This document shows positions 26,414 to 29,504 of a stretch of 33,998 nucleotides of DNA, piece by piece; the first letter of the stretch is position 1; every line of letters starts with the position of its first letter. The notes beneath the pieces were generated by a model. That model worked only from the letters and a program-made list of their open reading frames with translations. It ran no database searches and had not been told where the DNA came from. The position numbers and the translations under genes are program-made. Origin of the DNA: Candidatus Thalassarchaeaceae archaeon (GTDB lineage Archaea > Thermoplasmatota > Poseidoniia > Poseidoniales > Thalassarchaeaceae); the NCBI GenBank assembly GCA_030751995.1, contig JASMFB010000007.1:1-33998 (forward strand), read 5' to 3'.

Positions 26414-27460
26414 ATGCTTCATTTGAGAGTGCCGAGCCAAGATACGGATCGTATTCTCCAGCAACTCAAGGCTGCATCAGCATTACCTGAGGGCGCCAGA
26501 GTGCAAATGGATCCAAACGATTCCGAATACCGCTATATTCCATTCATTGGCAATTTACCACCATCAATAGCAGAACATTACTCCTCAGTCGACATCGAGG
26601 TGCAACCCCCCGCACCACGAACTTACAGAGATCACTTAGTTGCCCTACTCTCGTCCGAAGTTGTTTCATCGATTGAGTGGCCAACTCGTCACGAGTTTGT
26701 TGGCGACCTCATCCTCATCAAACTTGATGATGAACAACGTCAGTATGGTGGTGCGATTGGTGATGCCCTGCTTCTCCAACACTCTCGAACTCGAGCGGTT
26801 TTCGAAGATCTTGGTGTCACAGGTACATTCCGTGTTCGTGATCTCAAATTACTAGCGGTTCGTGAGGACCAAGATTCGTCGACACGAACACAGATTATTG
26901 AGAACGGCCATTATCTGTGGACCAACCCGGCCACCGTCTATTATTCGTCTAGACTTTCCCACGAGCGTGAAGGAACACTTGCTTGTGCTGAGAAATTGCG
27001 CGATGAAGTGGGACGACCATTAGTTGTCTGTGATCCATACGCGGGCGTTGGACCATCATTACTTCCCTTAATTTCTGAACCAGATTTGGTTGGTGAATTG
27101 TTTGCCGGTGACTTGAATCCTGCGGCAGTCGAGTTCCTTAGGGAGAATATCAACTACACATCAGCAACCATCGAATGCACGGATGCTCGTCTACTCAAAG
27201 ACCGCCCAGAGATGTGTGGCAAGTTTGACCTACTATTGGTCAACATCCCCCACGATACTCTCGAACATCTGCCTGACCTCCTCCCACTGGTACGAATGGG
27301 AGGAATTATCCGGGGGTGGGCAATCATCGAACAATCAGATTTCCAAACATCACAACAACTGCTTCGAGATACTCTAGGTTCGGAGGCGACTTTCGAGAGT
27401 CGACGATCCTATTCCGCCTCTGCAAACCTCTGTAGATTTGAAGCACGCAAGGCTGCGTAA
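26414..27460 (+). CDS. trm5: tRNA (guanine37-N1)-methyltransferase Trm5
   Basis: NPATVYYSSRLSHER; VCDPYAGVGPSLLPL; AGDLNPAAVEFLRENI; LLVNIPHDTLEHL. ATG at 26414 (MLHLRVPSQD) preferred. Confidence 0.9.
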   Translation: MLHLRVPSQDTDRILQQLKAASALPEGARVQMDPNDSEYRYIPFIGNLPPSIAEHYSSVDIEVQPPAPRTYRDHLVALLSSEVVSSIEWPTRHEFVGDLILIKLDDEQRQYGGAIGDALLLQHSRTRAVFEDLGVTGTFRVRDLKLLAVREDQDSSTRTQIIENGHYLWTNPATVYYSSRLSHEREGTLACAEKLRDEVGRPLVVCDPYAGVGPSLLPLISEPDLVGELFAGDLNPAAVEFLRENINYTSATIECTDARLLKDRPEMCGKFDLLLVNIPHDTLEHLPDLLPLVRMGGIIRGWAIIEQSDFQTSQQLLRDTLGSEATFESRRSYSASANLCRFEARKAA

Positions 27461-27472
27461 TTCACGTGGATT

Positions 27473-27547
27473 GGCGCCCCCGCCGGGATTTGAACCCGGG
27501 TCGGAGCCTCGACAGGGCTCCATGATAGGCCACTACACTACAGGGGC
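27473..27547 (-). tRNA. tRNA-Asp (GTC anticodon), CCA encoded
   Basis: Revcomp GCCCCTGTAGTGTAGTGGCCTATCATGGAGCCCTGTCGAGGCTCCGACCCGGGTTCAAATCCCGGCGGGGGCGCCA: acceptor GCCCCTG/CGGGGGC, anticodon stem GAGCC/GGCTC with loop CTGTCGA, T-arm CCGGG/CCCGG. Confidence 0.95.
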
Positions 27548-27611: not shown

Positions 27612-28652
27612 GTGAGCGATGAGGTTGTTGAGGATGACGATGGCTCAGATGAGATGCTTGCAAAGGTGACAGGAGGACCCCCTTCCAGTCCCCCAAGTGG
27701 ACCGCCCAGTGGGCCACCCAGTGGGCCACCTAGTGGCCCACCCACAGGACCCCCTGGTGGTGGTGCAGGAGGCCGAGCAATGTTTGGCGGAGGGTCAGCA
27801 CCCCCAAGTGGACCACCCGCTTCTCGACCATCGGCTCCATCCGGCGCTCAATCGATGCACACTGGTTCCAGCGTCGTCATCGAAGCGAGCCAAGAGAAAA
27901 TTGAGACCGTAAAGAAAACAGTTGACGGTGATGAGAAAGTGGAATTGGAACAATTGCGTGAAGAGAATGCCACTCTCAAACAAGGAATGGCCGCTGCTAG
28001 CGAAGTCATTCAGGAGGTCGAGAACCCCCCAATGCCACCTATCGTTGGCGAAGGATACGTCGTTCCCGGGGAGATTGTGGGTTTGTTTGCAACATTGGGA
28101 CGGCAACTGCACAAAGAGCGCCTTCTCCATGGAACTGCGGGTTCATTCAGCCTTCTTTCACCAACTTCACCAGGATTAGTCCATATCACACGCGAGGGTG
28201 CCGCACTTGGATTGATGAATGAATCCGATCTCATCACGGGACGACTTGGTGATGCAGCCCCAAATCAAGCCAGTGAGGATTGGCGAATTCATAGCGTAGC
28301 GCTGGCAATCGCTAGCCTTGAAAATGAAGGGCGTGGTGCTTGTGTCCACGTCGCAGCACCCTACACAACAACTCTGAGTCTGGAGAAGGATCGATACGCC
28401 CTTGTGCCTACAGATTTTGAAGGCCGCACCAATTTTGGCAGAGCGACAATCGTCGACGTTCAGTACAATGACATGGAAGGATATCTAGTTGAGATTACAG
28501 AAGCACTCAAACAAACTGGGAACAAATTATTCGTTGCCCGGGGGAACGGTGTTTACGCATTGGGTGCTGATTTGTTGGAAGCTTGGGGCCATGCAGCGAC
28601 CTTTGAACACAGCATGCGCATTCTCTATCTCAGTGAATTGGCGGACCTCTGA
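27612..28652 (+). CDS. Pro/Gly-rich repeat and coiled-coil N-terminus with class II aldolase/adducin-like C-terminal domain
   Basis: ORF track start 27438 overlaps tRNA-Asp; GTG at 27612 (VSDEVVEDDDG) or the ATG giving MLAKVTGG is more plausible. C-terminal region parallels FucA-type aldolases (SEDWRIHSVALAI...ACVHVAAPYTTTLS...VARGNGVYALGADLLEAWGHAATFEHSMRI). Confidence 0.72.
   Translation: MSDEVVEDDDGSDEMLAKVTGGPPSSPPSGPPSGPPSGPPSGPPTGPPGGGAGGRAMFGGGSAPPSGPPASRPSAPSGAQSMHTGSSVVIEASQEKIETVKKTVDGDEKVELEQLREENATLKQGMAAASEVIQEVENPPMPPIVGEGYVVPGEIVGLFATLGRQLHKERLLHGTAGSFSLLSPTSPGLVHITREGAALGLMNESDLITGRLGDAAPNQASEDWRIHSVALAIASLENEGRGACVHVAAPYTTTLSLEKDRYALVPTDFEGRTNFGRATIVDVQYNDMEGYLVEITEALKQTGNKLFVARGNGVYALGADLLEAWGHAATFEHSMRILYLSELADL
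27691..27757 (+). repeat. In-frame ~12-nt tandem repeat encoding (GPPS)n
   Basis: ccccaagtggaccgcccagtgggccacccagtgggccacctagtggcccacccacaggacccc encodes PPSGPPSGPPSGPPSGPPTGPP. Confidence 0.85.
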
Positions 28653-29287: not shown

Positions 29288-29354
29288 ATCCCTCTCTTTT
29301 CTCAACCCTTCGTGGGCGACGGCTTCAAATGGGAGTGGTAGGTCGGCGGATTCG

Positions 29355-29504
29355 ATGGTCAAGTCGGTTACCTACAAGTGTCTGCGTTGTGGGCACCTCG
29401 ATGAGTTTGAGGGCACACGAACTGGAATCGCCTGCAAGGCGTGCGGATTCCGTATTTTTGTCAAACCACGTCGTCAAGGTCACAAGACCCTAGATGCGAT
29501 TTGA
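29355..29504 (+). CDS. rpoP: DNA-directed RNA polymerase subunit P (Rpb12/RpoP)
   Basis: MVKSVTYKCLRCGHLDEFEGTRTGIACKACGFRIFVKPR: CxxC...CxxCGxRI-VK signature; ATG at 29355 inside a longer ORF. Confidence 0.85.
   Translation: MVKSVTYKCLRCGHLDEFEGTRTGIACKACGFRIFVKPRRQGHKTLDAI

Follow-up and report, generated by a model that had tools for sequence, protein, structure and literature searches.

A Poseidoniales protein family joining an acidic, (GPPS)n-containing arm to an apparently non-catalytic class II aldolase domain

The window, a 33,998-nucleotide stretch of the genome of a Candidatus Thalassarchaeaceae archaeon, contains an open reading frame that combines a proline-rich extension with a domain resembling class II aldolases. 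The question raised by this locus is whether its product, here called ALDO, is an enzyme, a gene in decay, or an aldolase fold put to another use.

Gene layout and fold of ALDO

The ALDO reading frame is real, and it is likely to start at the GTG codon at 27612. Its orthologues have an ATG at the matching position ('ADETADDDDGSDEML', 'TDEAVDDDDGSDEML'). A start at the upstream TTG, position 27438, is disfavoured because a frame opening there would cross the tRNA-Asp gene on the other strand. The gene and its parts are listed below.

27612-28652, + strand: ALDO reading frame, 346 amino acids, probable GTG start (from the tRNA-Asp position and the orthologue starts)
27472-27547, - strand: tRNA-Asp(GTC), divergent neighbour of ALDO
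27612-27671, + strand: acidic N-terminal segment (from the translation)
27672-27863, + strand: (GPPS)n tract, followed by a Gly/Pro/Ser-rich linker
27891-28022, + strand: 44-residue helix, predicted heptad-like coiled coil (AlphaFold2 model residues 15-58 and conserved alignment columns)
28023-28064, + strand: conserved PPMPPIV linker from helix to domain (P63 and P64 invariant in the orthologue alignment)
28065-28649, + strand: domain of predicted class II aldolase/adducin fold (PF00596), catalytically decayed
28143-28145, + strand: Ser at the FucA N29 position (phosphate site; this and the next four from the alignment to FucA)
28278-28280, + strand: Asp at the FucA E73 position (catalytic Glu)
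28347-28349, + strand: His at the FucA H92 position, kept
28353-28355, + strand: Ala at the FucA H94 position
28545-28547, + strand: Asn at the FucA H155 position (His in the nearest sister species)

The polypeptide runs from an acidic start through the (GPPS)n tract, the Gly/Pro/Ser linker, the helix and the PPMPPIV linker into the aldolase domain, which forms the C-terminal end, the protein stopping within about 8 residues of it. The first-pass annotation had placed an acidic segment, a GPPS tract and a coiled coil ahead of the domain. All three are conserved throughout Poseidoniales, and the AlphaFold2 model has the 44-residue helix just before the domain, in agreement with that description. 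The N-terminal extensions of the family have a median content of 19% Asp and Glu and 6% Lys and Arg, and complete orthologues contain between 0 and 27 GPP triplets (median 9).

Profile searches and model comparison both predict that the C-terminal region has the class II aldolase/adducin fold. PF00596 matches residues 160-338 with an E value of 8.2e-18 and 65.4 bits (cut-off 22.2 bits), and a profile of 57 ALDO orthologues matches FucA (2fk5) with an E value of 3e-12. The AlphaFold2 model has a pLDDT of 84.6. Its best Foldseek match is again FucA 2fk5 (E 1e-14, TM 0.82 of target, 26% identity). The adducin of the spectrin-actin complex (8iai_4) is a more distant match, at E 4.5e-9. Other matches include the pyruvic oxime dioxygenases and TqaM, which have the same fold and other chemistry. 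The earlier assignment of this region to the FucA-type aldolases depended on a structural match to PF00596; FucA supplies one, and the profile match and 105 orthologues agree with it. The best NCBIfam match is the archaeal aldolase model PRK08660/NF006413 at 76.7 bits, far below its cut-off of 203 bits; the MtnB model gives 22.6 bits (cut-off 137). Unlike ALDO, enzymes of the PRK08660/NF006413 type keep the N/E/HHH residues of the active site and lack a long extension.

Active-site decay and conservation of the gene

The active site was scored in 105 distinct ALDO orthologues, with 10 Thermoplasmatota enzymes as the outgroup. The FucA row that supplies the numbering (N29, E73, H92, H94, H155) is presumed to be accurate; its site columns agree with the 10 Thermoplasmatota enzymes, and the 2fk5 alignment places the same regions. 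The VHAHSPYA and RGHG motifs of Thermoplasmatota aldolases are a point of likeness to ALDO, and N/E/HHH is intact in 10 of the 10 outgroup enzymes. The ALDO protein of the window reads S29, S71, E72, D73, H92, A94 and N155.

The phosphate-site Asn at position 29 is kept in one orthologue and lost in 104, while S71 and S72 are found in 12/105 and 21/105, respectively. The catalytic Glu is kept in 10 and lost in 95, with Asp taking its place in 85. Among the zinc ligands H92 is present in 102 orthologues, H94 in 62 and H155 in 33, all three occurring together in seven. A single orthologue, L167 (from the Guaymas_26 MAG), has the three His residues together with the Glu, and it has lost N29; it is possibly a transitional or convergent member. 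Positions 29, 71, 72, 93, 94 and 155 lie at variability percentiles of 63-99 within the family (87 for H94 and 94 for H155), and the structural residues G28, W74 and G156 are nearly invariant, at percentiles 0-7. H92, W74 and the RGxG loop are likewise conserved. The ALDO tree requires 13 changes at H94 and 16 at H155. Close relatives have A, M, Q, P, Y or F at position 94 and N, R, K, M, G, L or Y at position 155.

These results modify the earlier statement that two of the three zinc ligands are lost. The second His of the HxH pair is indeed gone, being Ala in ALDO and absent throughout the window's genus, and the catalytic Glu is Asp, as had been read. The third ligand is Asn in the window's species; the same region reads RGHG in the sister species L002, which is 97% identical, and in the rest of the genus, showing that the H155N change is recent. 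The statement is thus correct for the window's species, but in the family at large ligands 2 and 3 drift and ligand 1 is kept. No realignment recovers the missing ligands. Profile, structure and site scoring all support the pseudoenzyme reading, and ALDO, judged by the loss of these residues, is probably a non-catalytic aldolase head.

The aldolase domain has a dN/dS of 0.014 relative to the sister species, indicating strong purifying selection. ALDO is found in nearly all Poseidoniaceae genomes and in the Thalassarchaeaceae genera g1, g2 and g4, as well as in a degenerate form (about 30% identity) in g7; beyond Poseidoniales only ordinary aldolases match it. The divergent tRNA-Asp is present at 19 of the 20 loci scanned, and the remaining locus (L089) starts at a contig edge. 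The genera without ALDO form one clade. No aldolase-like gene was found there in the interval from this tRNA-Asp to guaAA, and several of these genera have the two genes directly next to each other. Genomes G010, G012 and G016 lack guaAA as well as ALDO, which makes an assembly gap the probable cause. No further PF00596 protein was found in Poseidoniales genomes, each of 59 relatives having at most ALDO itself; the sole genome with two matches (G013) has them on two contigs with equal score.

The order-wide conservation, the decay of the site, the low dN/dS and the lack of any other class II aldolase among these genomes together make a well-supported case that ALDO is a pseudoenzyme kept by selection. 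The dN/dS value and the order-wide conservation rule against a pseudogene. A recent gain or phage origin was also rejected, since the locus keeps its synteny throughout Poseidoniales and no viral contig matched it.

In genus g7 the orthologues L041 and L042 occupy the same locus and still have an open reading frame, without the GPPS tract, a clear coiled coil or H92; their triad is L/H/Q.

A second protein with the GPPS tract and AF motif

The window's own genome contains DNA coding for (GPPx)3 in three places: ALDO, a gene similar to GH38 mannosidases, and an orphan gene, B (L272:193-747, contig C44). Within 11 Poseidoniaceae genomes (GPPx)3 maps only to ALDO or B among the matches listed, what looked like a third locus being the distal end of B, with YrdC and Map next to it as usual. 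None of 343 other proteins contains GPPxGPPxGPP. Protein B matches nothing in Pfam. Its conserved acidic beta sandwich is accompanied by a Phe-containing motif, and a (GPPS)n tract lies at the C-terminus. Further copies are at L228, L229, L230 and L258-L298, and at the loci examined the gene adjoins those for YrdC and methionine aminopeptidase.

The motifs of B have the forms DPLxxAF and FSGAF. The pattern [LMF]xxAF[GDSA] is found in 36 of 41 B proteins and in 55 of 81 ALDO extensions (0.44 expected for the latter by shuffling), both counts ignoring relatedness; the background is 16 matches in 118,139 amino acids, or 0.135 per 1000. Because the motif was picked after both families had been viewed, these counts describe a resemblance rather than a blind test. 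The ALDO protein of the window's own genus lacks the motif by this pattern. The motif lies beside the folded domain in B and near the protein start in ALDO. GPP counts of the two proteins are correlated (rho 0.49, p 0.003, a statistic that ignores relatedness), and both tracts are Met-rich in genus g4. The GPPS tract and motif common to ALDO and B are an unusual case of sharing between two genes.

ALDO and B are not neighbours in the genome. They have the same presence and absence at the level of genera, and B is highly diverged in g7. The genera that lack both form one clade, so that their co-absence represents a single co-loss event and, taken alone, weighs little as evidence of a link. The same clade lacks the GH38 gene. 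Its product, which resembles alpha-mannosidases and carries an acidic (GPPS)n extension at the N-terminus (L082:2219-5737 on contig C66 of the window's own genome; L299-L313), occurs in genera g1 and g4 and is also absent from most Poseidoniaceae.

The model of the B sandwich has a pLDDT of about 80, and its top Foldseek matches are adaptin and GGA ears, with E values from 2e-4 to 1e-3 and a TM of about 0.6 of target for the gamma/GGA ears. Such ears bind short Phe-containing motifs of the kind that B carries. However, the identity is about 10%, confidence in the model is moderate and Ig-like topology is common, which makes the likeness weak. Literature searches gave no connection of Marine Group II with class II aldolases, or of Poseidoniales with proline-rich proteins.

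A proposed scaffold role and its alternatives

Compared with FucA (PDB 2fk5, 1fua; PF00596), ALDO has the same predicted fold along the whole domain and keeps the first zinc His; it differs in the loss or drift of the phosphate site, the catalytic Glu and zinc ligands 2 and 3, and in its long disordered N-terminal arm and coiled coil. With the aldolase domain of adducin (PDB 8iai) it shares the fold and the loss of the metal site. In animals that domain binds proteins as a tetramer and is non-catalytic; the non-catalytic form was detected in metazoan phyla only and was proposed to have arisen at the base of the animals (PMC12599920). ALDO, in contrast, is archaeal. It is also nearer to FucA in sequence and fold searches, and its extension is N-terminal, whereas adducin has a neck and a MARCKS-related tail C-terminal to the head, a tail that ALDO lacks. 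The closeness to FucA and the extension at the opposite end argue for a parallel case, so that adducin may be regarded as a functional analogue of ALDO rather than a demonstrated relative. Separate loss of the site from this fold in an archaeal family spanning a whole order would show that the fold has been reused more than once.

The arm and the short motif common to ALDO and B suggest that a former enzyme now serves as a cellular scaffold. ALDO would be a cytoplasmic pseudoenzyme specific to Poseidoniales: its FucA-like domain would have given up substrate binding and catalysis in the common ancestor of the order, persisting as an oligomerization and protein-binding core. The core may be tetrameric like FucA and adducin, and from it the coiled coil and the acidic (GPPS)n arms would project to recruit partners. 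The most likely partner would be B, which combines an acidic beta sandwich with the AF motif and likewise bears a (GPPS)n tract, at its C-terminus, the two proteins forming a multivalent scaffold or adaptor comparable to the aldolase head of adducin, with no implication of adducin ancestry. We consider it somewhat probable that ALDO is such an oligomeric, non-catalytic hub with disordered arms that works with B. The earlier suggestion of a role like that of adducin is therefore kept in part: the tract, the motif and the co-loss with B provide circumstantial support, but the layout differs in that the extension is N-terminal.

The reading with the best claim against this is that the tracts and the AF motif arose by independent low-complexity drift, ALDO and B being functionally unrelated and ALDO having some other structural role. 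The tract varies widely in length and is missing in a few members of the ALDO family, and the co-absence is the event of a single clade, all as drift would have it. Drift accounts less well for the lack of a third gene with the tract among the matches listed in 11 genomes, for the motif lying beside a folded domain in B and near the start in ALDO, and for two tracts turning Met-rich together in g4; we consider it rather unlikely, though it deserves weight.

Two other alternatives retain a use for the old pocket, a remnant of which is possible because H92 and, mostly, an Asp at position 73 are kept. Pseudoenzymes often become sensors, and the conserved H92, W74 and RGxG loop could belong to a degraded pocket that binds a small molecule, such as a sugar phosphate, without converting it and regulates a partner by way of the coiled coil. 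Yet the phosphate-binding residues N29, S71 and S72 have been substituted, mostly at positions that vary, and a Pfam profile search of the protein found no fused DNA-binding or signalling domain, which leaves a ligand sensor unlikely. It is less likely again that ALDO is a divergent active enzyme, using Asp for Glu, other residues and a different metal or none on an unknown substrate. The near-constant H92, the prevalence of D73, the varied chemistry of this fold and the existence of L167 would suit such an enzyme, but its pocket should then be conserved, and instead the site positions are among the more variable of the family, H94 and H155 are replaced by many residues in close relatives, and even L167 lacks N29. 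Dead paralogues in other enzyme families commonly end as regulatory subunits. A heteromer of live and dead class II aldolases is highly improbable here, as no PF00596 protein besides ALDO was found in 59 relatives, and regulation of an active paralogue was rejected on the same ground.

If the hub reading is carried further, a two-part cytoplasmic scaffold may be pictured, tentatively and with more doubt than the hub itself. A tetrameric dead-aldolase hub would bear four coiled-coil and GPPS arms, the ear-like sandwich of B would read the AF motif, and GPPS-tailed clients such as the GH38 mannosidase would join in some lineages, so that archaea would have evolved their own analogue of the adducin hub independently. 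Either form of the hub reading would name two orphan proteins as probable partners in the Poseidoniales (Marine Group II), which are among the most abundant marine archaea and still uncultured.

More specific roles were considered and rejected. A part in the archaellum or polar cap is contradicted by ALDO without archaellin in g2 and g4 and archaellin without ALDO in g5 and g6, and a chemotaxis-array scaffold by the presence of MCPs in 0 of 59 genomes. Across the 59 Poseidoniales genomes archaellin (PF01917) is present in 43 and methyl-accepting chemoreceptors (PF00015) in none; Poseidoniales are apparently motile archaea without standard chemoreceptors.

A functional meaning of the neighbours of ALDO was likewise rejected, these being housekeeping genes; guaAA is not co-oriented with it in Poseidoniaceae. 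Between guaAA and an RFC-like gene the window contains a small zinc-ribbon reading frame (29353-29504, 'YKCLRCGH...ACKACGFRIFVKPR'), which we take to resemble the RNA polymerase subunit Rpo12. This reading frame retains its position in the genera without ALDO.
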